Virus record (IMG/VR): IMGVR_UViG_3300045738_001654
Span: 1-20,223 of that record
Length of the DNA stretch: 20,223 nt
Strand: one strand, 5' to 3'
Origin: a virus
The position numbers were made by a program, and so were the translations under genes. The notes below the pieces were generated by a model, which saw nothing but the letters and a program-made list of their open reading frames with translations, was not told the origin of the DNA and made no database searches. Positions 3,243 through 20,223 of this stretch are shown piece by piece (position 1 is the first letter of the stretch; every line of letters starts with the position of its first letter).

Positions 3243-4121
3243 ATGGAACCAAAACACCATATAGCATTTATTGATAGACTAAGAATAGGCATTGTCGGCA
3301 ACGGTTATGTCGGAGGCGCGACTGCTCTCCTAGAGAATGCGAAAACTAGAATTTACGTATATGATACTAATGAGTCTAAATGTGTTCCGGAGGGGCTTGA
3401 TTTTGAGGATCTTAGTTTATGTAATGTAGTTTTCATTTGTGTCCCAACGCCAAGTAAACCAGATGGTGAATGTCATACGAATATTGTATCTGATGTTATC
3501 GAGAGGTTAAAATCTTTCGATGAATGCCCCTATATAGTAGTTAAATCTACTGTTCCAGTTGGATTTTGTGAGGAACATGGGGTTAATTTTATGCCAGAGT
3601 TCCTAACTGAAAAAAATTGGAGAAACGATTTTTGTGGAAATGAGGATTGGATTTTTGGAAGCAACGATCCAGAAGATAAACACTTACCCCAAATTATAAA
3701 GCATTTGTTTAAAAATGCTCACAAAGAAAAGAAAATAAAACGCCCCCCTTCTATTTATTTCACAGATACAAAAACAGCAGAACTTTGCAAACACGCGAGA
3801 AATTGTTTTTTAGCAACCAAAGTTTCTTTTTTCAATGAAATATATAGTTTTTGCGAAAAGAATGACATAACCTTTGAAGCGGTAAGAGAATTAGTTTGTT
3901 TGGATTCCAGAATTGGAGAAAGTCATACTAAAGTTCCCGGACATGACGGGAAAAGGGGATTCGGGGGAACGTGTTTTCCAAAAGACATGGGCTCCTTGGT
4001 TAACCAGTTTAAAAAGAATGGCACTCCCAGCCATATCTTAGATGCTGCGATTAATAGAAATGTGTCCATAGATAGACCTGAAAAAGATTGGCTTGAGGAT
4101 AGGGGCCGCGCAGTAGTGTAG
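3243..4121 (+). CDS. short nucleotide-sugar (UDP-glucose type) dehydrogenase
   Basis: A 292-residue NAD-dependent enzyme of the UDP-glucose/GDP-mannose dehydrogenase family, which oxidises the sugar C6 alcohol to a carboxylate in two steps. The Rossmann motif is GIVGNGYVGGA (16-26). Then come VFICVPTPSKPDG (63-75), KSTVPVG (101-107), EFLTEKNW (119-126), KHARNCFLATKVSFFNE (183-199, with catalytic-type Lys183 and Asn187) and GFGGTCFPKD (239-248), with the thiohemiacetal cysteine Cys244. It is much shorter than typical ~400-residue bacterial enzymes because the C-terminal nucleotide-binding domain is missing, a form seen in phages. A likely role is making uronic-acid precursors for surface or DNA glycosylation; this is inference. 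Confidence 0.88.
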   Translation: MEPKHHIAFIDRLRIGIVGNGYVGGATALLENAKTRIYVYDTNESKCVPEGLDFEDLSLCNVVFICVPTPSKPDGECHTNIVSDVIERLKSFDECPYIVVKSTVPVGFCEEHGVNFMPEFLTEKNWRNDFCGNEDWIFGSNDPEDKHLPQIIKHLFKNAHKEKKIKRPPSIYFTDTKTAELCKHARNCFLATKVSFFNEIYSFCEKNDITFEAVRELVCLDSRIGESHTKVPGHDGKRGFGGTCFPKDMGSLVNQFKKNGTPSHILDAAINRNVSIDRPEKDWLEDRGRAVV

Positions 4122-4122
4122 T

Positions 4123-4199
4123 GCGCTCATAGCTCAGTTGGATAGAGCACGAGTCTTCTAAACTTGGGGTCGGGGGTTCGAGTCCCTCTGAGCGTACCA
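4123..4199 (+). tRNA. tRNA-Arg (anticodon TCT)
   Basis: Full cloverleaf with encoded CCA. Acceptor GCGCTCA/TGAGCGT (4123-4129 with 4189-4195, first pair G-U), D-arm GCTC/GAGC, anticodon stem CGAGT/ACTTG around the loop CTTCTAA (anticodon TCT), T-arm GGGGG/CCCTC around TTCGAGT, discriminator A and CCA 4197-4199. It reads AGA/AGG, which are the dominant arginine codons in the neighbouring AT-rich genes, so it probably supplements host decoding. It begins one base after the dehydrogenase stop. Confidence 0.95.
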
Positions 4200-9416: not shown

Positions 9417-9526
9417 TTTTTTTATGATTTTGTTATATTTTTTGTCTGGTTCTAAAAAACTTTAGATGAAAAAAAATTGTAGATTCCAAAAAAATCGAAT
9501 TTTAAACCGGAACGAAAAGTTTTCCT
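9417..9526 (+). promoter_or_regulatory. AT-rich intergenic gap
   Basis: This 110-nt gap has long A and T runs (TTGTTATATTTTTTG near 9430-9444) and a short frame from ATG 9466 that runs 29 residues into the next gene in another frame, without a clear ribosome binding site. No convincing terminator hairpin is seen after the deaminase. It probably holds the promoter of the 9527-11571 group. Confidence 0.3.
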
Positions 9527-9709
9527 ATGGGTGGACGATATATAGTGAAGTATAAACCACAAAAAAAGTATTTTAAGACGGACAAGGGGAAAAAGAGCCT
9601 AAAAAAAGCAAGAGACAAGTACGATAAAAAAGATCCCCAAAAACGAAGGAAACAAAAAAGGGATTATATGCGAAGAAAAAGAGAAATTGATCCAGATGCG
9701 TGGAGGTGA
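9527..9709 (+). CDS. very basic small protein
   Basis: A 60-residue protein in which roughly half the residues are Lys or Arg (KTDKGKKSLKKARDKYDKK, RRKQKRDYMRRKREIDPDAWR). It would bind nucleic acid or ribosomes by charge alone. The 'YKPQKKYFKTDKGKKSLKKA' stretch resembles short linker segments near HNH-type or ribosome-associated proteins, but no family is assigned. A GTG at 9545 is an alternative start. It lies just upstream of the sigma factor and two genes before bS21, another basic protein. Confidence 0.65.
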   Translation: MGGRYIVKYKPQKKYFKTDKGKKSLKKARDKYDKKDPQKRRKQKRDYMRRKREIDPDAWR

Positions 9710-9757
9710 TCACAATTTTTAAAAACTGGCTAATCTTAAAGCAAAAGAGAGGTAGCT

Positions 9758-10624
9758 TTGCCAAAAAAACAGAATGATACCCCAAAAATATTTTATAAAT
9801 TTTACAACCAAAAAGAATTGCCGGAACTTCTTACTCGCGAAGAAGAACGACAATTGGCCAACACCATCAGTAGATATGCAACCGGAAAGAAGAAACAGGA
9901 AGCAAGATTTAGGTTTATATCATCGAATCTCAGGCTCGTAATTAAAATTGCTAGGTCTTACGAAAATCTAGGATTAGACTTGGACGACTTAGTCGGAGAA
10001 GGAAACATCGGCTTGACTCAAGCGGTTGATAGATTTGATCCCAATAAAGGAGCTAAATTTTCTACTTATGCGGCGTTTTGGATAAGGCAGCGAATTATGA
10101 GAGCATTGAGTAATCAGAGTTCAGTTATAAGGATGCCCTGCTACCTAAAACAAATATATTTAAATTATTTAAAATATAGTGATAGGTTCAACGATAAACA
10201 TGACAGACGGCCCACTAATAAAGAAGCTTCGAAAGAACTGAACATTTCGGAAATAAAAGTCATTGAAATGCTTGAGGCTACTTCGGCTATGATTCCATTG
10301 AACTCTCCCGTTGGGGATAACGATGAGGGCGATTCCTATTCTGATATATTAAAAGATTCTAGTGCCAAAGATCCTTTAGATCTTTTTATCAAAAAAAACG
10401 GAACTGAAAACATTAATAGAATTTTGGGTAAGCTTGATCCAAGAGAAAAGGTTATTATTGAGAGGCGTTTTGGTCTCGATGGAGATGATCCAGAAACACT
10501 GGAAGAGATAGGGAAAACATTTAGCGTTACAAGAGAAAGAATCAGACAAATAGAAAAAGTAGCCCTTGGGAAGATAAAAGAAATGTATATTTCATCCCAA
10601 AAGTTTACTTTGGTTAGCCGATAA
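9758..10624 (+). CDS. RNA polymerase sigma factor, sigma-70 family
   Basis: A 288-residue sigma factor with regions 1.2-4.2 in order. Region 1.2: LPELLTREEERQLAN (21-35). Region 2: RFISSNLRLVIKIARSYENL, then DLDDLVGEGNIGLTQAVDRFDP (74-95) and FSTYAAFWIRQRIMRALSNQ (101-120). Region 3: RPTNKEASKELNISEIKV (151-168). Region 4: LDPREKVIIERRFGLDG (226-242) and TLEEIGKTFSVTRERIRQIE (247-266) as the -35-binding helix-turn-helix. It resembles primary/group 2 sigmas rather than phage late sigmas and lacks the acidic region 1.1. The TTG start is supported by GAGAGGT just upstream. It should direct host polymerase to phage promoters. Confidence 0.93.
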   Translation: MPKKQNDTPKIFYKFYNQKELPELLTREEERQLANTISRYATGKKKQEARFRFISSNLRLVIKIARSYENLGLDLDDLVGEGNIGLTQAVDRFDPNKGAKFSTYAAFWIRQRIMRALSNQSSVIRMPCYLKQIYLNYLKYSDRFNDKHDRRPTNKEASKELNISEIKVIEMLEATSAMIPLNSPVGDNDEGDSYSDILKDSSAKDPLDLFIKKNGTENINRILGKLDPREKVIIERRFGLDGDDPETLEEIGKTFSVTRERIRQIEKVALGKIKEMYISSQKFTLVSR

Positions 10625-10668
10625 AATGCTTGACTTTTGGAACAAAATATCGTGTTCTTGGGCGAAAG

Positions 10669-10947
10669 ATGCTTCCTAAGATTTTAATCGAAATATTGGG
10701 TTCCTTAGATGAACAAAGGGCAGAATACGTAGAATTAGGAAAGAGAGAAGACCATCACTATAAAAAAGTAAGTATTATAGGTATCTCCGTTGTGGGAAAA
10801 ATGAAAAGAAAAATAGTCAAAATTATTAAAAAACACTATGACAGAAGTAAACCTAAAAGACGGAACCTCTCTAGAATTCGCTCTAAAAATCCTACGAAAA
10901 AGAACAGCAAAAGTTCTAGGACAGGCAAGAGATCGCAGGTTTTATGA
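10669..10947 (+). CDS. hypothetical basic protein overlapping bS21
   Basis: A 93-residue protein from the ATG at 10669; a TTG at 10630 would add 13 residues. The N-terminal part (MLPKILIEILGSLDEQRAEY) is helical, the middle strand-rich (KKVSIIGISVVGKMKR), and the last 37 residues, encoded over the bS21 gene in another frame, are Arg/Lys/Ser-rich and look like incidental coding. A 17-codon frame (MLDFWNKISCSWAKDAS) ends over its start codon and could couple translation. Unknown function. Confidence 0.55.
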   Translation: MLPKILIEILGSLDEQRAEYVELGKREDHHYKKVSIIGISVVGKMKRKIVKIIKKHYDRSKPKRRNLSRIRSKNPTKKNSKSSRTGKRSQVL

Positions 10948-11035
10948 AAAACCAAGTGAGAAAAAATACAAAAGAAAAAAGAAAGCGAAATTTCGAGCGA
11001 AACTTCAAGCTAGAGAAGATAAACTTTGGAGATGA
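10838..11035 (+). CDS. rpsU: ribosomal protein bS21
   Basis: A 65-residue basic protein matching small-subunit protein bS21 in length and pattern. SLEFALKILRKRTAKVLGQ corresponds to 'pfd.ALrrFkr..ekaGvl', RDRRFYEKPSEKKYKRKKKA to the hallmark 'rRR.FYEKPs.kRkrK...a', and the end is Lys/Arg-rich helix. bS21 sits near the 3' end of 16S rRNA by the anti-Shine-Dalgarno and aids initiation. Phage-encoded bS21 is known from marine phages such as pelagiphages. It has no clear Shine-Dalgarno and lies inside the end of the preceding frame. Its stop overlaps the next start as ATGA. Confidence 0.88.
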   Translation: MTEVNLKDGTSLEFALKILRKRTAKVLGQARDRRFYEKPSEKKYKRKKKAKFRAKLQAREDKLWR

Positions 11036-11571
11036 GTAACACACTAGAAAACACGAGAACCTATCTTGTCGGACATATGCAGTACGCTAGTGGTAGAGAT
11101 TGGCGTGAGTATGTTGAACAAGAGCTAACCCCTCTCAACATAAAAATTTTTAACCCCTACAAAAAGCCTTTCGTAAAAGATGTAGATGAGGATGATGAAT
11201 CTCGTGCCAAAATTGCGCGTGATATGGAATGTGGTTATTACAATGATGTAGCAGAAAGGATGAAGCAAATTAGAAGCTATGACCTTAATCTCGTTGATCG
11301 TAGTGATTTTATTATAGCCCACCTTCTACCGGAAGTAGCAAGTTGGGGCAGCGCGGAGGAAATCGTTACTGCCGTCAGGATGAAGAAACCAATCTTTATA
11401 AGCATGGAAGGCGGAAAACGGAAAACCCCATTGTGGATTATGGGTAAGCTTCCGCATCATTATATTTATGATACTATTGAAGAAGTAGTAGATATGATTA
11501 AAGCTATTGATAGTGGCACGAAAGAAATTGATAGTGACCGATGGAGACTTTTGAAAAAGGAATTGCGGTAA
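11032..11571 (+). CDS. nucleoside 2-deoxyribosyltransferase-like protein
   Basis: A 179-residue protein from the ATG at 11032 (ATGA overlap with bS21; the TTG at 11026 is less likely). The N-terminus TYLVGHMQYASGRDWREYVEQ matches the 'YLaGPM....d.g..WR' opening of nucleoside 2-deoxyribosyltransferases. KIFNPYKKP follows as the second strand, then DLNLVDRSDFIIAHL, and SWGSAEEIVTAVRMKKPIFI with the catalytic-type Glu (109 or 110). The enzyme swaps the base on a deoxyribonucleoside and would recycle DNA precursors. The fold is shared with MazG-neighbour and nucleotide-cleaving or sensing proteins, so an NAD or nucleotide hydrolase role is an alternative. Confidence 0.78.
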   Translation: MSNTLENTRTYLVGHMQYASGRDWREYVEQELTPLNIKIFNPYKKPFVKDVDEDDESRAKIARDMECGYYNDVAERMKQIRSYDLNLVDRSDFIIAHLLPEVASWGSAEEIVTAVRMKKPIFISMEGGKRKTPLWIMGKLPHHYIYDTIEEVVDMIKAIDSGTKEIDSDRWRLLKKELR

Positions 11572-11665
11572 CTTCTGTTTCTGATTGATCTAAAACATTT
11601 ATATTTAAATTGACTTTATCAACACGTCCAAGTGACATGTCGATAAGACAAGCATAAGTCAAGCG
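11572..11665 (+). promoter_or_regulatory. leader region with imperfect 13-bp hairpin
   Basis: TTGACTTT at 11610 is the same octamer as ahead of the protease gene. Overlapping it is an inverted repeat: 11616-11628 pairs with 11634-11646 at 11 of 13 positions (two A-C mismatches) around a 5-nt loop. Its right arm includes the palindrome GACATGTC. No T run follows, so it is not a terminator. It could be an operator or a 5' leader structure for the gene at 11666. Confidence 0.45.
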
Positions 11666-12265
11666 ATGAGTAAAGAAAGAACAATCATAAAAGAAGAAAT
11701 CGTTGGACGATTCATGGAAGACATTTGCGACAGGGCAAAGGTTCCTTGGTATAAAAGAGTCTGGTGGAGATTCTGTTGGAAGTATGATGCGGTTTCTAGG
11801 TGGTGGCGTAATAAACGTCAGACTTGGCAAACAGGCTTTCCGCATGAAGAGTCATGGAATTTTTTTAGTTGGCACTCTGAGACGGTTGTGCCCCGCTTGA
11901 AATATCTCCGAAATAATCTTAACGGTTGCCCTAGCGAGATGTTTGAAAAGAATTACGATCACGCAGCCGACTCTGAATTAACCAAGCAGGAGAGAGAATT
12001 AGCTATGGACAGGGCTATGCGTAAATGGGAGAAAACTTTAGATAAAATGATTTGGTCATTTAAACATTGGGATGATTCAATTAACCCAATTAAGCCCAAA
12101 GACTACGACCCAAGACACAAGAAGACTACCTACAGTGATGGGAGCGTTGGGTATGAGGGCTTGGATGAGAGAAAATGGGACTGGACACCATGCGAAAAAC
12201 ATAGTAAAAGAGTCCAAGAAGGGTTAGACTTGTTTAGCAAGTATTATTTGAATTTGTGGGATTAG
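11666..12265 (+). CDS. conserved phage-type hypothetical protein, Trp-rich
   Basis: A 199-residue soluble protein unusually rich in Trp (WYKRVWWRFCWKY, RWWRNKRQTW). GFPHEESWNFFSWHSETVVP followed by RLKYLRNN matches a pattern I recall from phage hypothetical proteins ('RGfsdedtW.ld......PRL..l'), in which a Trp-rich helix precedes a 'PRL' helix and an acidic loop. The middle is helical (ELTKQERELAMDRAMRKWEK). No catalytic motif is seen. It stands alone after a gap with a leader hairpin, so it may have its own promoter. Function unknown. Confidence 0.75.
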   Translation: MSKERTIIKEEIVGRFMEDICDRAKVPWYKRVWWRFCWKYDAVSRWWRNKRQTWQTGFPHEESWNFFSWHSETVVPRLKYLRNNLNGCPSEMFEKNYDHAADSELTKQERELAMDRAMRKWEKTLDKMIWSFKHWDDSINPIKPKDYDPRHKKTTYSDGSVGYEGLDERKWDWTPCEKHSKRVQEGLDLFSKYYLNLWD

Positions 12266-12415
12266 CAACTGACAAGGATTCCTTTACAGTTGGGACAAAA
12301 ATGCGTGGTCGCTGAGTATTCGGAGATTCACGCGAGAGCCTGTCGCCCTCGTGGCGGTGGTAAAGGGTCGTTTTGGGCTGGTAATTACTGGTCGGCGACC
12401 CCGCTCTCAATTTAT
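12266..12415 (+). ncRNA. candidate structured RNA between a gene and a tRNA
   Basis: No gene fits in these 150 nt, which are visibly more GC-rich than the surroundings. Successive hairpins can be drawn. At 12266-12292, CAACTG/CAGTTG encloses AAGG/CCTT with a 3-nt loop. At 12303-12333 there is GCGTG/CACGC with an inner CTGA/TCGG. At 12344-12356 there is CGCC/GGCG. At 12365-12401 there is GGGTCG/CGACCC. No T run follows any of them, and no tRNA T-loop consensus is present. It may be a small RNA or a structured leader processed from the downstream tRNA. No known RNA family is recognised. Confidence 0.5.
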
Positions 12416-12490
12416 CGCGGGATAGCGCAGTGGTAGCGCGTTTGGCTCATAACCAAAAGGTCAAGGGTTCGAATCCCTTTCCCGCAACCA
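12416..12490 (+). tRNA. tRNA-Met (CAT), initiator-like
   Basis: Cloverleaf with encoded CCA. Acceptor CGCGGGA/TCCCGCA pairs at six positions, with a C1-A72 mismatch, the hallmark of bacterial initiator tRNA. D-arm GCGC/GCGC, anticodon stem TTTGG/CCAAA around CTCATAA, T-arm AAGGG/CCCTT around TTCGAAT, discriminator A. The stem keeps only two of the three G-C pairs that mark initiators (TGG/CCA rather than GGG/CCC), and pair 11-24 is C-G rather than A-U, as in elongators. It is probably tRNA-fMet; elongator Met or Ile2 (lysidine) remain possible. Confidence 0.92.
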
Positions 12491-12500
12491 TTGAAATAAA

Positions 12501-12899
12501 ATGACAGCACAAGACATACTAAATAAATACTCTGAACTTTATCGAGAGAAAGACCTCCCGATGGAAGAGACCACTATGTGCTGGGGTCTAGAAGTCCCCG
12601 ATGGTTGGTTACCAGTGATTGATAAATTAAGCAACGTACTAGCCAATCCATATAGAGTAGGTCTCGGCGGTGGTCGGATAATCAAACCCAAATTCACAGC
12701 AAAACAAGTAAAAATAAAATTCGGTGAATTAAGATTCTACTACGAGGTGGATATTGAAGTAAGCACTTGTTCAGGAATTTCTCTATCCAGTATTTGCATT
12801 ACCAAAGAAGAAAGAGCAATCGAAGTAAGACTCGCAAGAAAATACGCTGACGGAGCAATTGCAATGGCGACAGAACTTTGTGAGGGGGAACCATATTGA
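12501..12899 (+). CDS. conserved phage hypothetical protein
   Basis: A 132-residue protein. MCWGLEVPDGWLPVIDKLS followed, after a Gly-rich loop, by KQVKIKFGELRFYYE is a pattern I recognise from many phage proteins of unknown function ('C..e.g.GW.pii..l' then 'vKEKFG.LRfYy'). It ends with a helical VRLARKYADGAIAMATELCE in the position where this family usually carries a Cys-containing tail. There is no known activity. It starts 10 nt after the tRNA and its stop overlaps the next start (TGATG). Confidence 0.75.
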   Translation: MTAQDILNKYSELYREKDLPMEETTMCWGLEVPDGWLPVIDKLSNVLANPYRVGLGGGRIIKPKFTAKQVKIKFGELRFYYEVDIEVSTCSGISLSSICITKEERAIEVRLARKYADGAIAMATELCEGEPY

Positions 12900-13066
12900 T
12901 GAAAAAAGGAATAATTGACGGTATCCTTGGCCCCCCTATAAATATAGAGGTTAACCCAGACATACAAATAGTAACGCCACCGGAAATGACAGACGCTTTA
13001 CTTTGGATTAAATGGACTTTAATGGTGATAGCTGTTCTTTTGCTAATCAGAATTTTAAAAAAATGA
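12899..13066 (+). CDS. 55-residue membrane-anchored peptide
   Basis: A short protein with a soluble N-terminal half (GILGPPINIEVNPDIQIVTP) and one C-terminal hydrophobic helix (about residues 36-53, WIKWTLMVIAVLLLIRIL) ending in two Lys. The tail orientation suggests a C-tail in the cytoplasm. The start overlaps the previous stop. No family recognised. Confidence 0.65.
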   Translation: MKKGIIDGILGPPINIEVNPDIQIVTPPEMTDALLWIKWTLMVIAVLLLIRILKK

Positions 13067-13081
13067 AAAGACCATATTAAT

Positions 13082-13363
13082 ATGAAGGGGATGAAAGAAA
13101 TTAAATCCAGCACCAAAACCCTAATCGAAGCCCTACGCCTAATCGCAAACGGCGGAATCAATGACCCCGAAGGTGTTACAACCGCAGCTATTCTTGAGGC
13201 AGCAGATAGGCTAGAGGAATTAGGAGAAGGCTGGGTCTACACACCCGATAGGCAAGAGGCGATGACCCTCGAAAGATTTGATAAACTTGCTGAAGAAGGA
13301 AGCGACGATATAGACAAATTCATGGATTGGAAAAACGCCAAGAAAGGCAAACACCTATCATGA
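13082..13363 (+). CDS. phage hypothetical, helical
   Basis: A 93-residue protein. KTLIEALRLIANGGINDPEG, then TTAAILEAADRLEELGEGW, resembles a small-protein pattern common in phages ('EALR.LA.....gv..aai.EAAdRLEeL'), thought to be a helical hairpin; function unknown. The second half is acidic then basic. ATG 13091, three codons later, is an alternative start. The stop overlaps the next start as ATGA. Confidence 0.65.
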   Translation: MKGMKEIKSSTKTLIEALRLIANGGINDPEGVTTAAILEAADRLEELGEGWVYTPDRQEAMTLERFDKLAEEGSDDIDKFMDWKNAKKGKHLS

Positions 13364-13455
13364 ATAACAGAGAAGGAAGGGAGACCTGCCTCAGATTCAA
13401 AGTGGTCAAATTCGACCACTTTCCCGAAGGCGTCACAACCGCAACAAATGAATAA
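13360..13455 (+). CDS. 31-residue peptide, possibly a duplication fragment
   Basis: MNNREGRETCLRFKVVKFD continues to FPEGVTTATNE. A 21-nt stretch at 13423-13443 differs at only two positions from 13166-13186 in the preceding gene, both coding for PEGVTTA. A perfect inverted repeat lies in its middle. It overlaps both neighbours by a few bases. It may be a remnant of a tandem duplication rather than a working gene. Confidence 0.45.
   Translation: MNNREGRETCLRFKVVKFDHFPEGVTTATNE
13399..13422. repeat. perfect 9-bp inverted repeat
   Basis: AAAGTGGTC (13399-13407) and GACCACTTT (13414-13422) flank a 6-nt loop. No T run follows, so it is not a standard terminator. It could be an operator site or simply a feature of the small frame around it. 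Confidence 0.7.
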
Positions 13456-13810
13456 CGAACAAAACTACAACCCAAACTCCGCCAAGCACAACGACCCTTG
13501 GGAAGACAATTGGGGCGACGAAGAGTGGTTTCAGCATCAGTGGGAAAACAAAAACGTGCCCCGCCATCGAGAGGGATACTTTTGGGGAGATAAAGAAACA
13601 TTTAATGAAACCTGTAATTTTTTGCATAAATTGGATGAATTGCCAAAAGACGCCAGTGTGCCACCAGAAATGCTCAAAGACGCCTTAAATGGCATCGTGG
13701 GACGCCTAAACAGGCTCACAGATGAACGCAACTCTCTCGAAGAGTATGAATTTAACAAAATAAAAACAGCCGCAAAAACAGCCGCAAATAGAACCGAAAC
13801 AGAAAGATAG
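13448..13810 (+). CDS. acidic hypothetical protein
   Basis: A 120-residue protein. The first third is rich in Asn, Asp, Glu and Trp and looks disordered (NDPWEDNWGDEEWFQHQWEN). The remainder is helical: DKETFNETCNFLHKLDELPK, then a probable coiled coil (ALNGIVGRLNRLTDERNSLEE). The tail is Lys/Thr-rich. No family recognised. Codon choice here uses more GCC, CCC and GAC than the first half of the window. Confidence 0.65.
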   Translation: MNNEQNYNPNSAKHNDPWEDNWGDEEWFQHQWENKNVPRHREGYFWGDKETFNETCNFLHKLDELPKDASVPPEMLKDALNGIVGRLNRLTDERNSLEEYEFNKIKTAAKTAANRTETER

Positions 13811-13820
13811 AATCAATAAT

Positions 13821-14018
13821 ATGAAAACCCGAATCAAAGAAATAACAAACAGCAACGGCGAACCTAAATTCGTTCCCCAGTATAGGTTGTTTGGCTTTGT
13901 TTGGACGTCTTGGGGAGGCTCTAGTTATTACCCTCGTGTTGAGTTCTGTTCTTTGGAGAAATCAAGAGAGTGGTTAAACTTTAAAGAAGAAGCGGGGGTA
14001 AAGTATCATGAAGCCTAA
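13821..14018 (+). CDS. small hypothetical protein
   Basis: A 65-residue protein with aromatic strands (PQYRLFGFVWTSWGG, SSYYPRVEFCSLEKSREWL). The layout suggests a compact beta-sheet with a final helix, as in other short phage proteins with a 'W......F.sleeA..wl' ending. It overlaps the next gene by 11 nt. No function assigned. Confidence 0.65.
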   Translation: MKTRIKEITNSNGEPKFVPQYRLFGFVWTSWGGSSYYPRVEFCSLEKSREWLNFKEEAGVKYHEA

Positions 14019-14265
14019 ATACCTTTATCTAATCGCCCTTTGGATTCCCTTCCCCGAATCAGAATACGGCGGACTCTTAAACGCCATAGCAGAAAGCGAC
14101 GAGGACTGTATTAAAATCCTCGAACTAGAGTATGAAAGCGAAGGCTCTTGGAAGGGAGGGTACGCTAAGGAATTAAAAAAAGCAGTAAAAGAAGCCAAAA
14201 AATTTGAACTCTCTGACGCTCACAAACACGAAGAGCAAAGAATAGTAATGGAATTTACGACATGA
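14008..14265 (+). CDS. small hypothetical protein
   Basis: An 85-residue protein, strand first (YLYLIALWIPFPESEYGG), then acidic helix (AIAESDEDCIKILELEYE), then lysine-rich helix. It resembles short phage proteins that process 'edc..iL' helices near macro-domain genes, but no family is assigned. Its stop overlaps the next start (ATGA). Confidence 0.65.
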   Translation: MKPKYLYLIALWIPFPESEYGGLLNAIAESDEDCIKILELEYESEGSWKGGYAKELKKAVKEAKKFELSDAHKHEEQRIVMEFTT

Positions 14266-14753
14266 GATACACCCCAGAAATAATTAGCTCCTTGGGAGGG
14301 AATCAAATCTTTGTATTCGGCTCAAATCGTCGGGGTGTTCACGGGGCAGGAGCAGCCTTATTGGCTCGCAAGGTCTTTGGTGCTCGACGCGGTGTAGGTA
14401 TTGGGCTAACGGGTAAATGTTATGCGCTTCCGACTAAAGGTTTCGAAATCGAGACCTTAAGCCTAAGTGAAATCAGCGTGTCATTTCAAAAATTTATTAA
14501 ATGCGTTCTCGACAACCCTCAACTTGATTTCCTACTCACAAAAGTCGGCTGCGGTTTGGCGGGGTACACCACCGACGACATTGCCGGAGAATTTTGGCAC
14601 GGCATGGAATACAACGGGCAAAAGAAAATCCCCGTAAATTTATGGGTTCCAAGAGAATTTATCTTCACCGCAGACTACGAAGAATCCCACTCAATACTCT
14701 CTGGGCAGCACCTTTGTTTATTCTCTTATTCCAAATCGGCGGAAATAAATTAA
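14262..14753 (+). CDS. macro-domain-like phage protein
   Basis: A 163-residue protein. IFVFGSNRRGVHGAGAALLA (16-35) is the glycine-rich nucleotide/ADP-ribose loop of the A1S_2505-type phage macro-like family. GVGIGLTGKCYALPTKG (44-60) and LLTKVGCGLAGYTTDDIA (near 91-108) are its other conserved blocks, matching 'GyG...G.SYAIPTK' and 'f.vT.iGcGlAGy...dIa'. It should bind ADP-ribose or a related nucleotide; whether it removes ADP-ribose from proteins or RNA is not shown. The C-terminal 35 residues look family-specific. It could act against host ADP-ribosylation-based defence, or simply in nucleotide metabolism. Confidence 0.8.
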   Translation: MRYTPEIISSLGGNQIFVFGSNRRGVHGAGAALLARKVFGARRGVGIGLTGKCYALPTKGFEIETLSLSEISVSFQKFIKCVLDNPQLDFLLTKVGCGLAGYTTDDIAGEFWHGMEYNGQKKIPVNLWVPREFIFTADYEESHSILSGQHLCLFSYSKSAEIN

Positions 14754-14764
14754 AAGAAATATAG

Positions 14765-14995
14765 ATGAAAACAAATTTTAAATTATTGTGGCCTTGGTTT
14801 CGTTGGAAAAATGAGGCTGAAGATAATGCCACGTTTAAAGGGGTGGGTTTTCCCACGGAAATATCATATCACGAAATGTTTGGGGAGTGGCACTTTGAGG
14901 TTCAAATCTTTGGGTTTGGGTTCCATATTGAAAGATTCCCGATTGGAGAAAATAAAAAACAAAAGACTAAAACCAAAACTCGAAGGAGACATTGA
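14765..14995 (+). CDS. hypothetical protein, paralogue of the 15230 gene
   Basis: A 76-residue protein. GVGFPTEISYHEM, then WHFEVQIFGFGFHIERFP, is a strand-rich core and shares a layout with the protein at 15230 (GFSFPTE... then LGFGFTITR). The tail is a run of Lys, Thr and Arg. A second frame from 14811 overlaps it and was not used. No function known. Confidence 0.6.
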   Translation: MKTNFKLLWPWFRWKNEAEDNATFKGVGFPTEISYHEMFGEWHFEVQIFGFGFHIERFPIGENKKQKTKTKTRRRH

Positions 14996-14997
14996 GT

Positions 14998-15243
14998 ATG
15001 TTACTAGAAAAGACAGAACACGAAGGCTATAATACCTACAAAGTATACTGGGACAACGGAAAGTATTTAGGTGATTTTGAACCTATGGACGATGGCTACT
15101 TAGCATATTGGCCCGACAAAGAAAACGGCGGAGCCTTCACAGAACATCTTCTCCATCAACTGTATCTAGAGCTAGAGAAATTGAACGCGTCTTGGGATAA
15201 AACGGTCAGAGAGGGCTTGAGAAAATCGAATGAAACTTTATAG
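14998..15243 (+). CDS. hypothetical protein with strong ribosome binding site
   Basis: An 81-residue acidic protein. ATG at 14998 is chosen over TTG 14992 because AAGGAG (14983-14988) is nine bases upstream of ATG but only three of TTG. Sequence: strand-rich N-terminus (YNTYKVYWDNGKYLGDFEP), an aromatic centre, then helix (HLLHQLYLELEKLNASWD). It looks like a small phage protein with a WD-type turn; no family assigned. It overlaps the next gene by 14 nt. Confidence 0.65.
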   Translation: MLLEKTEHEGYNTYKVYWDNGKYLGDFEPMDDGYLAYWPDKENGGAFTEHLLHQLYLELEKLNASWDKTVREGLRKSNETL

Positions 15244-15466
15244 AAAAGAAAAACACTGGAGTGACTATTGGGAAGTCCATATCAATTTCCCGTGGATGGG
15301 GAAAAGATTTGCGCCACACCCGCCACACCATTCGCTTGGTGGGCTAGAATATGGCTTCAGTTTTCCTACGGAATGTTGTTTGTATGTAGAAGATGAGTTT
15401 TTTTGGTTTTTTACCTTGAAGTGCCTAGGGTTTGGGTTTACAATAACGAGACAGAATGGATATTGA
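15230..15466 (+). CDS. hypothetical protein, paralogue of the 14765 gene
   Basis: A 78-residue protein, aromatic- and His-rich (YWEVHINFPWMGKRFAPHPP). GFSFPTE at about residues 43-49 and LGFGFTITR near the end parallel the protein at 14765. The two genes are separated by one unrelated gene, so a local duplication is likely. Function unknown. Confidence 0.6.
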   Translation: MKLYRKEKHWSDYWEVHINFPWMGKRFAPHPPHHSLGGLEYGFSFPTECCLYVEDEFFWFFTLKCLGFGFTITRQNGY

Positions 15467-15468
15467 TT

Positions 15469-16086
15469 ATGGGAATGTTTGATTATATAACATGTGAAAT
15501 GCCGCTACCACGAGGAGGCGCGAATACTATACCTACTTTTAGGTACGACTACCAATTCCAAACCAAGGATTTGGCTAACGCGCTTATAGAGTACAAGATT
15601 GGTAAGGATAAAACTCTTTACGAGAAGAGGGTAGAGTACGAGGAAAGGGAACTAACCGAAGAAGAAAAGAAGGATAGAGACAGCGGCGGGTTTTGGAGTC
15701 CTATGTGGGCTATGGAAGAAAAGAGTCACGAATGGGTAAAGGACGACTTTACAGGCTATATTAGGTTCTACGACATTCTTTACGATGTAGACAGTACGCA
15801 TGATGCTTGGGTAGATTACCGCGTTCATATAAAGAATGGGGAAGTGCAGGGAGATGTGGAGCTAGAAACATACAGGCTTGAAGACAACACGGAGAACAAA
15901 GTCAACAAGACAAAATGGAAAGAAGAAGCAAAAGCCCGAAAAGAATACGAGCAGAAATGGAGATACAAATATTGCTTCAAGTATTGGAACAGGCTAGTAG
16001 GTTGGACATTCCGTATAGGTAGAAGACTTCACGGATGCGAAGGTAAATTGGTTTCGTGGAAGGCAGAGCGTTGGTTAAAATTTTGA
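15469..16086 (+). CDS. conserved phage hypothetical protein, 'GMFDYI' family
   Basis: A 205-residue protein. The start at 15469 (MGMFDYITCEMPLP) is chosen over an upstream in-frame codon because this N-terminus is a hallmark of a widespread phage hypothetical family ('mFDyi.CeypLP'), which continues 'FQTKdL' (here YQFQTKDLANALIEYKI). The middle (LTEEEKKDRDSGGFW) is a charged linker. TGYIRFYDILYDVDSTHDAW and YRVHIKNGEVQGDVEL are strand-rich. The C-terminus is Lys/Arg/Trp-rich and helical. It has no known function and no catalytic motif. It begins 2 nt after the previous stop. Confidence 0.8.
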   Translation: MGMFDYITCEMPLPRGGANTIPTFRYDYQFQTKDLANALIEYKIGKDKTLYEKRVEYEERELTEEEKKDRDSGGFWSPMWAMEEKSHEWVKDDFTGYIRFYDILYDVDSTHDAWVDYRVHIKNGEVQGDVELETYRLEDNTENKVNKTKWKEEAKARKEYEQKWRYKYCFKYWNRLVGWTFRIGRRLHGCEGKLVSWKAERWLKF

Positions 16087-16087
16087 T

Positions 16088-16321
16088 ATGACGTTCAAAA
16101 TATTATCAGAAAAACCGCAAAAAGATGGAAGCCTACTCCTTGAATGTGAATTTGATGAAGAGTGGAAGAAAGCCTACAAGAAGGCAACGGGCAAAAAGAG
16201 GGCCACAAAAAAGGGCATGGAAAAATGGCTTATCGAAAAGATAATGGAAGGATGCAAAATGGATAAGGCAAGCAACTTAGACAAACTGCCGGAAGACACC
16301 TACGAAGGGGGACACTACTAA
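16088..16321 (+). CDS. small hypothetical protein
   Basis: A 77-residue protein: a short strand (DGSLLLECEFDEEW), then a lysine-rich helix (KAYKKATGKKRATKKGMEKW) and an acidic tail. It resembles the many short phage proteins with 'F.eeW....kk..gkkr.t......fl...l', which I recall without function. It starts 1 nt after the previous stop and ends 2 nt before the next start. Confidence 0.65.
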   Translation: MTFKILSEKPQKDGSLLLECEFDEEWKKAYKKATGKKRATKKGMEKWLIEKIMEGCKMDKASNLDKLPEDTYEGGHY

Positions 16322-16323
16322 TA

Positions 16324-16491
16324 ATGAAAATAACAATTGAACCAACCGAACAACGTAGGGTGGAAACCGCAGACACCATGCACTCGACGGTAAGCGTAAG
16401 CATTGCCAGCGACGACTTGGATATTGGCGAAGCGATGGAACAAGTAGTGAAAGCCCTGCAAGCGTGGGGTTTTCACAACGAGAGCATTGCG
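16324..16491 (+). repeat. 168-nt direct repeat, copy 1 (copy 2 at 17234-17401)
   Basis: The two stretches align without gaps over 168 nt with about 23 mismatches by hand count, then diverge abruptly. They begin at the ATG of each gene. The level of identity at third codon positions indicates a fairly recent duplication or a gene-conversion tract, about 910 bp apart. Confidence 0.9.
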
Positions 16492-16683
16492 GGATACCTT
16501 GATGAAGAACTTGTGTGGCAACTTGGGTTGGGTGGAAGAGACGACCAAGCGGCGATGCTCGAAAGCATTTATAAGGCTGGCGGGGTTCTCACTTCCACTA
16601 CCGCAGACGCAATCAGCAAGGACGTAATAGAAAGCACTCTTGATAAGGACATAGACAAAACTCCTGAATATGGGGGAGTATAA
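16324..16683 (+). CDS. duplicated hypothetical protein, copy A
   Basis: A 119-residue protein. The first ~56 residues (MKITIEPTEQ..., SIASDDLDI, EQVVKALQAWGFHNESIA) are nearly the same as in the gene at 17234. The 'T.SI..DDLdi.E....v..aL.a.Gf' pattern is reminiscent of a short phage family that I know only as hypothetical. The C-terminal half differs from copy B (DQAAMLESIYKAGGVLTS). A ribosome binding site is weak. It sits in a run of genes with almost no gaps. Confidence 0.75.
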   Translation: MKITIEPTEQRRVETADTMHSTVSVSIASDDLDIGEAMEQVVKALQAWGFHNESIAGYLDEELVWQLGLGGRDDQAAMLESIYKAGGVLTSTTADAISKDVIESTLDKDIDKTPEYGGV

Positions 16684-16854
16684 ATGATATTTTACGAAGT
16701 ACAAGAAAACGCGCAGCAAAACTGGCGTACTGTTGGTTATTTTTTATCTAGAGATAAGGCTAAAGAATATACGAAAAAGTTTAATACTTTAGTTGTAGTT
16801 AATGGCCCACTTAGAATAGTCGAAAGAGAGTTTCAAGACGAATTGGAAGATTAA
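16684..16854 (+). CDS. small hypothetical protein, 56 residues
   Basis: MIFYEVQENAQQNWRTVGYF leads to LSRDKAKEYTKKF, then VVVNGPLRIVEREF. It has a strand-helix-strand layout with a basic helix, as in short 'W..vg.f.....A......' phage proteins. It lies exactly between copy A and the ferredoxin gene, starting at the base after the previous stop. Unknown function. Confidence 0.65.
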   Translation: MIFYEVQENAQQNWRTVGYFLSRDKAKEYTKKFNTLVVVNGPLRIVEREFQDELED

Positions 16855-17085
16855 ATGGCTACTAAAGAAGACAAGTACGAAGACAACGTCGTTGGGAAAT
16901 ATTACTGCGATACCGAGTGCATCGACTGCGACCTGTGCCGAGAGATTGCTCCTGACAATTTTAAACGGGATGAAGACGGTGGTTACTCATTCGTTTACAG
17001 CCAGCCGGAAAACGAAGAAGAAGAAACTTTATGCGAAGAAGCTATGAATAGTTGCCCAGTTGATGCTATAGGTGATGACGGATGA
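16855..17085 (+). CDS. ferredoxin, [4Fe-4S]
   Basis: A 76-residue acidic ferredoxin that shuttles single electrons. CIDCDLCREIAP (Cys22, Cys25, Cys28) and NSCPVDAIG (Cys67) supply the four cluster ligands in Cx2Cx2C...CP form; Cys18 and Cys60 are extra cysteines that could support a second site. GGYSFVYSQPENEEE between the halves is a loop I associate with ferredoxins from Verrucomicrobiota and Planctomycetota (from memory, not a search). A viral ferredoxin could feed electrons to a reductase or the oxygenases. It overlaps the next start as ATGA. Confidence 0.88.
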   Translation: MATKEDKYEDNVVGKYYCDTECIDCDLCREIAPDNFKRDEDGGYSFVYSQPENEEEETLCEEAMNSCPVDAIGDDG

Positions 17086-17231
17086 ATTATAAAGAGTGGC
17101 TAAAATGGAGAGAAGAATATTTTAAAGAGAGTATGAATTTGGGTAACAAAAAAGAATTAACCGAAGAACAACAAATGGAAGCTTGGGAAAAACATCTTAA
17201 TGAGACAGACTCAGGCCACAGACCTAGTTAG
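17082..17231 (+). CDS. small hypothetical protein, 49 residues
   Basis: MNYKEWLKWREEYFKESMN continues through KKELTEEQQMEAWEKHL. It is helical and highly charged with regularly spaced Trp. It resembles a short helical-hairpin phage protein. It starts in the ferredoxin stop (ATGA) and ends 2 nt before copy B of the duplicated gene. Unknown function. Confidence 0.6.
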   Translation: MNYKEWLKWREEYFKESMNLGNKKELTEEQQMEAWEKHLNETDSGHRPS

Positions 17232-17233
17232 AA

Positions 17234-17401
17234 ATGAAAATAACAATTGAACCAACCGAGCAGAATCGCGTGACAACCGTGGACACCATGCACTCAACGG
17301 TAAGCATAAGCATTGCCAGCGATGATTTGGATATTACCGAGATAATGGGACAAGTAGTCAAAGCCCTGCAAGCGTGGGGATTTCACAACGAGAGCATTGC
17401 G
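17234..17401 (+). repeat. 168-nt direct repeat, copy 2 (copy 1 at 16324-16491)
   Basis: Partner of the repeat at 16324-16491; the substitutions are spread along the length and no gaps are needed. Confidence 0.9.
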
Positions 17402-17527
17402 AAAGAGCTCGATTATGAACTCGCGCATGAGCTTGGACTGAAGAAGGAGCCCCCCGAAGAAACCGTTATGGTTATGAGAGAGGCTGTGGAGCGAGCCAGT
17501 GACGCAATGAAAAATGATGAAAACTGA
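17234..17527 (+). CDS. duplicated hypothetical protein, copy B
   Basis: A 97-residue protein with the same first ~56 residues as copy A (SISIASDDLDI, GQVVKALQAWGFHNESIA) but a different C-terminal part (KELDYELAHELGLKKE, then VMVMREAVERASDAMKNDE), which is a charged helix. The shared domain is strand then helix. The two copies may interact as homologous subunits; this is inference. It overlaps the next gene by 14 nt. Confidence 0.75.
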   Translation: MKITIEPTEQNRVTTVDTMHSTVSISIASDDLDITEIMGQVVKALQAWGFHNESIAKELDYELAHELGLKKEPPEETVMVMREAVERASDAMKNDEN

Positions 17528-17783
17528 ATACCCAGAAGATTATGGCAAATATAATGAGTATGATTTTGACAACAGAATCACCTATGACGAAGAAGCAGAT
17601 GCGATGTATATTTACGTTGCCCCTCCGCAGGGACGAATAGGAACGGTATTAGTTTATAAGGACAAAAGTGGTAACATGATTGCGATTGATACTGACGAAG
17701 TAAACACTCAGGTAGGAATAGAGATAATCGGGGTATCGAAGTTAATGAAGAAGTTTAATTTAAATAAAATAATAAATAATTAA
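17514..17783 (+). CDS. DUF2283-family protein
   Basis: An 89-residue protein whose core, ITYDEEADAMYIYVA (23-37), and VGIEIIGVSKLMKKF near the end match the DUF2283 pattern 'v.YD.e.DalYI.l' followed by 'd.....vGIEil.aS'. DUF2283 proteins are short beta-rich proteins of unknown function, widespread in bacteria and phages. The first 18 residues (MMKTEYPEDYGKYNEYDF) are an added acidic, tyrosine-rich extension. The start is inside copy B. Confidence 0.82.
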   Translation: MMKTEYPEDYGKYNEYDFDNRITYDEEADAMYIYVAPPQGRIGTVLVYKDKSGNMIAIDTDEVNTQVGIEIIGVSKLMKKFNLNKIINN

Positions 17784-18167
17784 ATGAAAAATAATAAAAT
17801 AAAAAGAACTATATTTTTAGTAGCGTTTTTTTTCGCGGTACTATTGGGAACATTATGCATTACGGGCTGCCCATCAACCCAACAGCGACCATCATCCGCT
17901 TCCATATTAAAGCCAGACTTGCATATGCCGACGTACAAGGTCTATGTTAAAGGATTGGTATGTCCATCTTGCGCGGTTGGACTGAAAAAGGGGCTGATGA
18001 AATTACCTTTCATTAAATCAATCCATGTTAATTATAAAACTGGTTTGGTTTTAATATATGAAATAGACAATCGCATAGACCACAAAGGCATCAAAAGATA
18101 CGACAAGTCACGAATCACAAAAGCCGTTGATAATAGCGGGTACAAAGTAGATAGATTTGTAAAATAA
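17784..18167 (+). CDS. lipoprotein with heavy-metal-associated (HMA) domain
   Basis: A 127-residue protein. A basic start then hydrophobic helix ends in a lipobox (ITGC, Cys29), giving a lipid-anchored protein outside the inner membrane. After a Ser/Pro linker comes an HMA domain: YKVYVKGLVCPSCAVGLKKG with the metal-binding Cys60-x-x-Cys63, then KLPFIKSIHVNYKTGLVLIY and a C-terminal strand. This is the MerP/CopZ-like fold that binds Cu(I), Hg(II) or other soft metals. It may scavenge or deliver metal in the periplasm. Note another metal-thiolate-like lipoprotein at 6514. It starts at the base after the previous stop. Confidence 0.85.
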   Translation: MKNNKIKRTIFLVAFFFAVLLGTLCITGCPSTQQRPSSASILKPDLHMPTYKVYVKGLVCPSCAVGLKKGLMKLPFIKSIHVNYKTGLVLIYEIDNRIDHKGIKRYDKSRITKAVDNSGYKVDRFVK

Positions 18168-18178
18168 AGGAAAACATT

Positions 18179-18337
18179 ATGACATTCGAGAAATGGTGCG
18201 AGAAAAACGAAGAGGAATTGCATATAATGTTTGCTGAAACAGGGATGGACAGGGAATTGGATTTCGATGCGGAAAGAGAAATAGAAGAATATTACCAAAG
18301 ATACCTAGAAGGCGAACGTTACGAAAAAAATGCTTGA
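18179..18337 (+). CDS. small acidic hypothetical protein
   Basis: A 52-residue highly acidic helical protein (MTFEKWCEKNEEELHIMF, EREIEEYYQRYLEGERYEKN). AAGGA eight bases before the ATG supports the start. It resembles small phage proteins beginning 'mtFeeW.e.....L...f'. Unknown function. Confidence 0.68.
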   Translation: MTFEKWCEKNEEELHIMFAETGMDRELDFDAEREIEEYYQRYLEGERYEKNA

Positions 18338-18369
18338 CTCAGCAGGTTAATTCTGGTAATCACAGAAAC

Positions 18370-18864
18370 ATGCACGTACTGGACGATGTTTTAGACGATG
18401 ATTTGCGAAAATCTTTTTTAGACCATGATTATAATGGTGCGAAATCAAATGGATTGGGTGATTTTTGGTATGGTCAAAAATATGACGATATAGAATTTCC
18501 ATATGCACAAAAAATATTACGCATATGTAGTTCATATGCAGACATTTCTAAAATGGTTGGTTATGAAATGCACCATAATTATTTTAATGGAGGAACTTAC
18601 CATTTGGATAAAGATGAAATTCTGTACAAAAAAACTGACGAGGTAAAATGCCCGATTGTTAGCGTGGTTTACTATCTATCGATAGAGGAGATGGTGGGTG
18701 GGACTTTTTATACAAGTGATATAACTATAATACCAAAAACCAATAGGTTAATAATCTTTTCAAGTGATTTGCATCATGGGTATGCGCCCGTAACAGGAGG
18801 CACTAGAATATCAGTTGGTATAAATCCTTGGGGTGAAGCACCAATGTATCCCGATGAGAATTGA
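18370..18864 (+). CDS. 2-oxoglutarate/Fe(II)-type oxygenase, second copy
   Basis: About 164 residues from ATG 18370; a TTG at 18334 overlapping the previous stop would add 12 residues. [12 protein letters not shown] is a typical opening ('vvDnvls'). The facial triad appears as His78-x-Asp80 in YHLDKDE and His135 or His136 in [11 protein letters not shown], with Arg146 in [11 protein letters not shown] as the 2OG-binding residue. It is smaller than, and different from, the P4H-like enzyme at 6673. GGTFYT fits the strand between. The substrate is unknown. It overlaps guaC by 11 nt. Confidence 0.75.
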
Positions 18865-20008
18865 ATCAGACATAAAGCTAGACTATAAGGATGTTCTTAT
18901 GCGTCCGAAGCGTTCCACGTTAACCTCTCGCAAGGAAGTTGACTTGGTTCGTGAGTTTACTTTCCCCAACGCTGGCGGCGAAGGCAGCGACCCCAAGGCT
19001 TACGGGTGGAAAGGTGTTCCGATTGTAGCGTCAAATATGGATACAGTTGGCACTTTTGAGATGGCGACAGCCCTTGCCCAACACCGTATGCTTACTTGCA
19101 TCAGCAAACACAATGATATAAAAAGATGGCTTCACAAACTAAATGGGTATGGCGTTTATAAATCTCAAGAACAAAAAGAAGGCACGGTTTGGAAGCATGA
19201 TCGTGACTCAAGAGGTTGGCAAAATAGAATTTATGAACATATCTCTCCCTCTATCGGCATTAAATATGACGAGAAAGAGTTTGACGATATGGATTATTTA
19301 CATACTATTACTTGGAACTTCCATCATACTAGGTTTGTATGTATTGACGCGGCAAATGGATACACAACGAGATTTTGCGATTTTATTAAACGAGTCAGAG
19401 AAGAGCATCCAGCATTGATTATTATTGCGGGTAATGTTGTTACTGGCGAAATGACGGAACAATTAATTTTAAATGGAGCAGATATTGTCAAGGTTGGTAT
19501 TGGAAGTGGTTCTGTTTGTACTACTCGCATTCAGACTGGTGTTGGTTATCCCCAATTTAGCGCGGTGGTTGAGTGTGCCGATGCCGCTCATGGCGTTGGT
19601 GGGTATATTATGGCTGATGGCGGTTGTACCTGTGCTGGAGACGTTGCCAAGGCTTTTGGTGGAGGTGCTGATTTTGTCATGCTTGGCGGGATGCTGGCTG
19701 GACATACGGAGTGTGAAGGACAAGAAGAAGAAATAGATGGTAAAAAGTATAAGACTTTTTATGGCATGAGTTCAGATACCGCTATGAAAAAACATAGCGG
19801 TGGTGTAGCGAGTTACCGGAGTTCCGAAGGTAAAACGGTGAGAATCGAAGATAAGGGGCTGGTTAAGAATACGTTAGAAAATATTCTTGGAGGATTACGA
19901 TCTGCTTGTACATATATTGGGGCTAGAAGAATAAAAGATATGCCAAAGTGCGCCACATTTATTAGAGTGTCACAGCAATCTAATGAAATATTTGGGAAGA
20001 ATATTTAA
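18854..20008 (+). CDS. guaC: GMP reductase
   Basis: A 384-residue enzyme that converts GMP to IMP with NADPH, releasing ammonia. Assigned to GMP reductase rather than IMP dehydrogenase by the close match of its C-terminal half to Gua[25 protein letters not shown] with the catalytic Cys, [18 protein letters not shown], then [36 protein letters not shown] and [25 protein letters not shown] at the start is also typical, and no CBS domains are present. A segment around residues 90-150 is longer than in the ~347-residue E. coli enzyme. The start ATG 18854 is preferred over an upstream in-frame codon. It overlaps the next start. Confidence 0.93.
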
Positions 20009-20223
20009 TGACCATTTATTTGTTATATGGACAACCAGCATCAGGTAAGACAACGTTAAGTAAACTTTTATGTAAACATATAGAACATAAGGTAGATGGG
20101 TGTGACCCTGCTATTATTGACGGAGACGAATTCAGAGAACTACTTGCGAATAAGGATTATAGCAAAAAAGGTAGATATCAAAACATTAGAAATGCGAACG
20201 CAATTGCAACATACATAAACAAT
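20008..20223 (+). CDS. adenylylsulfate-kinase-like P-loop kinase, partial at window end
   Basis: The first 72 residues are present and the gene runs off the window. LLYGQPASGKTTLSKLL is a Walker A motif. IIDGDEFRELLANKDYSKKG, then RYQNIRNANAIATYI, follow the APS-kinase pattern 'lDGD..R..l..dlgfs...R.eniRR...va'. In that case it phosphorylates adenylylsulfate to PAPS. Other small P-loop kinases (for example polynucleotide or nucleoside kinases) share part of this pattern. The ATG overlaps the GMP reductase stop by one base. Confidence 0.75.
   Translation, partial: MTIYLLYGQPASGKTTLSKLLCKHIEHKVDGCDPAIIDGDEFRELLANKDYSKKGRYQNIRNANAIATYINN

Follow-up and report, generated by a model that had tools for sequence, protein, structure and literature searches.

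bS21 is the commonest ribosomal protein in phages, and to our knowledge its purpose there is unproven. We asked whether a phage bS21 gene and a nearby tRNA gene with features of the initiator form a set that acts on host translation, as a preliminary description of this DNA had proposed, and how the two genes relate to the use of Shine-Dalgarno (SD) sequences by the phage. The stretch analysed, here called the window, is the whole 20,223-base virus record IMGVR_UViG_3300045738_001654, a linear fragment with nearly all of its genes on the + strand. Its second half (9500-20223) gave no DNA matches in 50,697 phage records.

The bS21 gene and its surroundings

Table 1. Features of the window considered in this analysis
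Feature	Position	Strand	Remarks
tRNA-Arg(UCU), second tRNA of the record	4123..4199	+	also found in the relative G006
Sigma-70 family sigma factor, regions 2, 3 and 4	9758..10624	+	adjoins bS21 upstream; RpoD-like
Small ORF with basic tail, internal ATG near 10670	10630..10947	+	other frame; covers the bS21 start by 110 nt
bS21 (rpsU-like), 65 aa	10838..11035	+	Pfam, NCBIfam, PHROG
Nucleoside 2-deoxyribosyltransferase-like gene	11026..11571	+	directly 3' of bS21; Pfam PF15891 at cut-off; syntenic in L007
G+C-rich, strongly folding stretch	12295..12415	+	directly 5' of the CAU tRNA; -49 kcal/mol, z -3.4
tRNA with CAU anticodon, initiator class	12416..12490	+	ARAGORN; Rfam RF00005, 73.7 bits
dCMP deaminase, GMP reductase-type protein, HNH nuclease, trypsin-like protease			further genes of the window

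The ORF read as bS21 in the preliminary description scores above cut-off against both Pfam PF01165 (37.3 bits; cut-off 27) and NCBIfam TIGR00030 (42.3 bits; cut-off 28.95) and also matches PHROG 21469, "ribosomal protein S21", so that identification stands. Like the Pelagibacter phage HTVC008M and uncultured aquatic phages (PMC6375957), the window represents a large phage with a single bS21 gene of this family. Another phage bS21 has been incorporated into E. coli ribosomes (Mizuno et al. 2019; PMC6375957), and by analogy the window protein would be expected to assemble into host 30S subunits.

The closest relative is locus L007 in record G006 (52 kb), whose bS21 is 61% identical to that of the window. 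There, too, a sigma factor (60% identical to the window's) and a dCMP deaminase lie upstream of bS21, and the same deoxyribosyltransferase-like gene follows directly downstream. Because the order of sigma factor, bS21 and deoxyribosyltransferase-like gene is common to both, the position of bS21 is conserved in this phage group; in the Bacteroidetes-infecting phages with bS21 (PMC9723584), by contrast, the gene lies among structural genes. The small ORF that runs over the bS21 start has a counterpart in L007 (13322-13591), which overlaps bS21 by 101 nt, and since the part preceding bS21 seems conserved, translation may run on through the start of bS21.

No SD precedes bS21 in the window (CAAAATTATTAAAAAACACT-ATG) or in L007. 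A strong SD of the autoregulatory type is thus absent from both, whereas it is present at two other phage loci, L212 (in LR756501) and L210. In L212 it lies upstream of 20001 (AAAGGAGGATAA-ATG) and in L210 upstream of 5984 (GAGAGGAAAAA-ATG); both belong to SD-poor phages with Bacteroidota-type bS21, and this SD resembles the autoregulatory one of the host rpsU.

Several other features of the window were recorded. The folding stretch before the CAU tRNA had no equally stable shuffled version, and it matched no family in Rfam. Next to a gene for a holo-ACP synthase (2026-2403) this phage has an acyl carrier protein-like gene (2620-2868), and its UDP-glucose dehydrogenase-like gene (3243-4121) is missing the C-terminal domain as well as the beginning of the NAD-binding domain. 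The GMP reductase/IMPDH-family gene (18833-20008), with counterparts in G006 and G089, is probably a marker of this phage group. A direct repeat of 204 nt with 82% identity (16323-16526 and 17233-17436) represents a duplicated small gene region.

The CAU tRNA and its linkage to bS21

ARAGORN, Rfam and the sequence itself agree on a CAU tRNA with a C1-A72 mismatch, as first described, and pair 1-72 is flagged as non-standard in the Rfam RF00005 alignment. The determinants of formylation are C1.A72, G2:C71, C3:G70 and A11:U24, and those of P-site binding are three G-C pairs at 29-31 (PMC7949028; PMC4611024). With bacterial tRNA-fMet the window tRNA shares C1.A72, G2-C71, C3-G70, the CAU anticodon, G30-C40 and G31-C39; it also has G4-C69, A73 and an encoded CCA. 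It differs in the D stem, where C11-G24, the elongator type, stands in place of A11-U24, and in the anticodon stem, where U29-A41 in place of G29-C41 leaves two of the three initiator G-C pairs.

To weigh these features together, we built an initiator-versus-elongator profile from 39 CAU tRNAs with a mismatched 1-72 pair and 25 with a paired one. The window tRNA received an initiator log-odds of +25.1, of +19.6 when positions 1 and 72 were left out and of +11.9 without the acceptor stem, values whose size is inflated because the initiator training set was partly selected by pattern, but whose sign is not in doubt. Every elongator was negative in the same test (from -46 to -10 over the whole molecule, none above -4.6), and scoring of the window tRNA as an elongator or Ile2 tRNA, against which the preliminary description had staked its assignment, did not occur with this profile.

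The departures from the textbook pattern could also mark a gene in decay or put to another use, either an elongator or an inactive chimera, that merely resembles an initiator: the tRNA has an elongator-type C11-G24, it has lost the G-C pair at 29-41, and the CAU tRNA of G006 is solely of the elongator/Ile2 type. We consider this very improbable, as all stems are intact, CCA is encoded, the tRNA model is matched at the score given in Table 1, the initiator profile holds without the acceptor stem, and C11-G24 is found in bacterial C1-type CAU tRNAs as well.

The wider distribution of these pairs was surveyed in two scans. The pattern C1...A72 with a CAU anticodon occurred in at least 119 virus contigs; among 81 of the tRNAs that were examined, the D stem had A11-U24 in 71 and C11-G24 in 5, and pair 29-41 was A-U in 48, G-C in 20 and U-A in 12, so that 61 of the 81 lack G29-C41. 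Many of the C1.A72 viral tRNAs stand alone at contig ends and are probably host genes at the ends of prophages, while others lie within phage tRNA arrays. A genome scan for CAU tRNAs with a C start (CGCGG) and C11-G24 returned 8 contigs. The bacterial genomes AUK180 and CSMAG_2929 each have such a C1-type tRNA beside an ordinary elongator Met tRNA. These two (L172 and L173 in AUK180, L176 in CSMAG_2929) are among the seven genomes of a small phylum, and the other five have A11-U24. Since C11-G24 is present both in bacterial C1-type tRNAs and in other viral C1.A72 tRNAs, it does not disqualify the window tRNA, and the sequence supports placing it in the initiator class as a member that is not textbook. 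That both phages and bacteria have initiator-class tRNAs whose D stem is non-standard bears on the question of which determinants initiators need.

A tRNA of this class might serve the phage independently of bS21, by replacing host initiator tRNA that is destroyed or depleted during infection, for instance by VapC-type toxins that cut tRNA-fMet. Phage tRNAs have been proposed to act against anticodon nucleases, and VapC cuts initiator tRNA (PMC10264068; PMC4105405); in the window tRNA the anticodon stem (UUUGG/CCAAA) departs from the usual one while the loop and acceptor stem are kept, and the phage carries a second tRNA, for Arg-UCU. The anticodon loop, CUCAUAA, is nevertheless unaltered, and phages are reported generally to avoid carrying tRNA-fMet where VapC attacks it (PMC10264068, PMC4105405). 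Replacement of this kind therefore strikes us as unlikely, if conceivable.

The bS21 gene and the CAU tRNA, described as lying within 1.7 kb, are both real, are on the same strand and are 1.4 kb apart, and action of both parts in translation initiation, which had also been claimed, is supported. The stronger proposal is that they jointly rebuild host initiation so that the altered 30S subunits favour the mRNAs of the phage. It draws on the close spacing on one strand, on L210, where an initiator-like tRNA (U1.U72, A11-U24) lies 0.74 kb upstream of bS21, and on several huge phages with both genes. The occurrence of rpS21 in huge phages was reported by Al-Shayeb et al. 2020 (PMC7162821). Three published ones (LR756501, LR756504 and LR745206) resemble the window in that a single genome has both bS21 and CAU tRNAs whose 1.72 is unpaired, but there the genes are roughly 70-370 kb apart, the bS21 is of the Bacteroidota type and the tRNAs have A11-U24 where the window has C11-G24. 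A bS21 gene was also present in 2 of 80 contigs with C1.A72 tRNAs (G062 and G069, both from IMG/VR), at 96 and 29 kb respectively. The pairing is thus not unprecedented; carrying both genes is not new, and close linkage has been seen twice, in the window and in L210.

Against a joint role stands the nearest relative. G006 retains bS21, yet the only CAU tRNA found in it (U1-A72, A30-U40, A31-U39) lies about 19 kb from that gene, and no initiator tRNA was found in its 52 kb fragment. None of the other bS21 loci examined, L210 excepted, had a CAU tRNA within 10 kb of bS21, the co-occurrence in the 80 contigs is rare, and peptide deformylase was found in none of 11 records tested. The comparisons do not support a conserved two-gene module, and we hold joint rebuilding of initiation to be quite improbable. 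Separately, we noted CAU tRNAs with initiator-like anticodon stems and long variable arms in L210 (5388-5475) and in L221 of LR756501 (1662-1752), both from phages with bS21.

Shine-Dalgarno use and the residue at bS21 position 54

SD use was scored as GGAG, GAGG or AGGA at -18 to -4, with the same simple gene caller throughout and internal ATGs as the baseline. In the window such a motif precedes 15% of the 39 called genes and 12% of internal ATGs (Fisher p=0.58), which bears out the weak SD use first described; G006 was similar, with 21% of starts against 15% of internal ATGs (p=0.28). The same method gives 45-71% in several other phages and is thus able to see SDs. As for the individual genes that had been listed as having little or no SD, those at 1011, 5237 and 10838 have none, while 3243 does have a GAGGAG (-20 to -15), which lies at a greater distance from the start codon than a normal SD allows.

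The presence of bS21 does not account for this weakness. Many phages with bS21 are rich in SDs, and bS21 presence is therefore no predictor of SD absence, contrary to the expectation that weak SD use would follow the gene. What separates the phages is a single residue. In Bacteroidia the 16S tail sits in a pocket formed by bS21, bS18 and bS6, and in Flavobacterium johnsoniae the anti-SD is freed, and mRNA with a strong SD favoured, when bS21 carries Y54A or loses its C-terminus (PMC9976891). Phe52 of the window bS21 (codon 10991-10993), 12 residues past the K-P/x-S motif, aligns with Tyr54 of the F. johnsoniae protein, an alignment that we verified against structure 7JIL; G006 has Tyr at this position. 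Among the phage loci compared, those with Phe or Tyr at the Tyr54 position (13 loci) had SDs at 16% of starts, pooled, compared with 50% for the others (19 loci; Mann-Whitney p=4e-5), and the difference held after close relatives were collapsed (p=3e-4), a rough control for relatedness.

A stricter measure, five-base SD motifs over 20-120 kb per phage, gave the same division: the window-type group (the window, G006, G088-G091 and G100) had them at 1-6% of starts, the clearly SD-using G094, G004, G002, HTVC008M and L198 at 15-42%. HTVC008M, with Lys at the Tyr54 position, has SDs at 48% of its starts, whereas the window, with Phe, shows no SD enrichment. The exceptions are L155, L157 and L203, in which SD use is low without an aromatic residue, and L150, which has His at this position and uses SDs. 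The type of bS21, as given by an aromatic residue at the Tyr54 position, and not its presence, predicts SD loss, and this is the strongest result of the analysis. New here is the association of phage SD-lessness with a single bS21 residue that is known elsewhere to occlude the anti-SD.

Aromatic residues at this position were previously described in bS21 of Bacteroidetes phages (Chen et al. 2022; PMC9723584), which, like the phage of the window, are large and carry tRNAs. The window bS21 nonetheless falls outside the Bacteroidota-type cluster in a tree that, for so short a protein, is weak in its deep branches. The window, G006, L145/L147 and L158 form one aromatic cluster (91/88), another falls with the Bacteroidota-type sequences (97/97), and L148/L149 stand apart. 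Given the separate clusters, either the window group lives on SD-blind hosts and its bS21 has diverged, or its phages acquired the residue independently; a single origin of the aromatic types is possible on this tree.

Host and proposed mechanism

Several lines of evidence touch on the host. Sigma-70-like promoter sites are above expectation in G006, G089 and G100 and below it in the Bacteroidota-type huge phages, which hints at a non-Bacteroidota host for the former, but this phage brings an RpoD-like sigma factor of its own. In the window there were no such sites (0 against 2.3), and a general scan found no excess. Protein searches with the sigma factor, GMP reductase, rIIA and RNR against cultured phages returned distant matches only, from mixed hosts. 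We also considered the phylum of AUK180 and CSMAG_2929 (7 genomes), since AUK180 provided the best bacterial match to the tRNA (85% identity), and rejected it: the bS21 of both genomes is without the aromatic residue, so a host in their phylum is not supported. Either the host is SD-blind or the phage renders its ribosomes SD-blind.

The reading that we favour, at a probability of roughly 0.55, is that of an SD-independent phage with a bS21 of the anti-SD-occluding type, in which the initiator tRNA is a separate cargo gene and not part of a co-evolved module. The fragment would come from a large phage of the lytic type, whose mRNAs are translated without SD pairing. Its bS21 would, by homology, enter new host 30S subunits, where the aromatic Phe52 may help to keep the anti-SD tail occluded and so sustain SD-independent initiation during infection. 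The C1.A72 CAU tRNA, for which we infer charging and formylation, would top up or replace host fMet-tRNA; the two would act on the same step as separate genes, presumably to the benefit of the phage. F. johnsoniae ribosomes (PMC9976891; 7JIL) offer a close likeness, with an aromatic residue at the anti-SD contact and a genome without SDs, as in the window, but there the ribosome is that of a cell, its bS18 and bS6 match, and rpsU has a very strong autoregulatory SD of the kind that the window bS21 gene lacks.

Some observations weigh against this favoured reading. Were the host already SD-blind, the SD-less genome would mirror the host and bS21 would alter nothing in SD use. The Bacteroidia pocket also requires bS18 and bS6, neither of which the phage brings in this fragment, and in the tRNA formylation or binding to the P site may suffer from C11-G24 and from the presence of two instead of three initiator G-C pairs. 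The tRNA is missing from G006, and L155, L157 and L203 are SD-weak without the aromatic residue.

In a different version, an SD-using host would be turned SD-blind by bS21 of the Phe52 type, so that SD-dependent host mRNAs lose out while SD-less phage mRNAs, initiated with the phage tRNA, go on being translated. We regard this as distinctly unlikely; if it were true, phage bS21 would have gained its aromatic contact with the anti-SD independently of Bacteroidota. The split by residue turns a vague idea of ribosome redirection into a testable one, in which a single residue of bS21 is set against SD-dependent or SD-independent translation.
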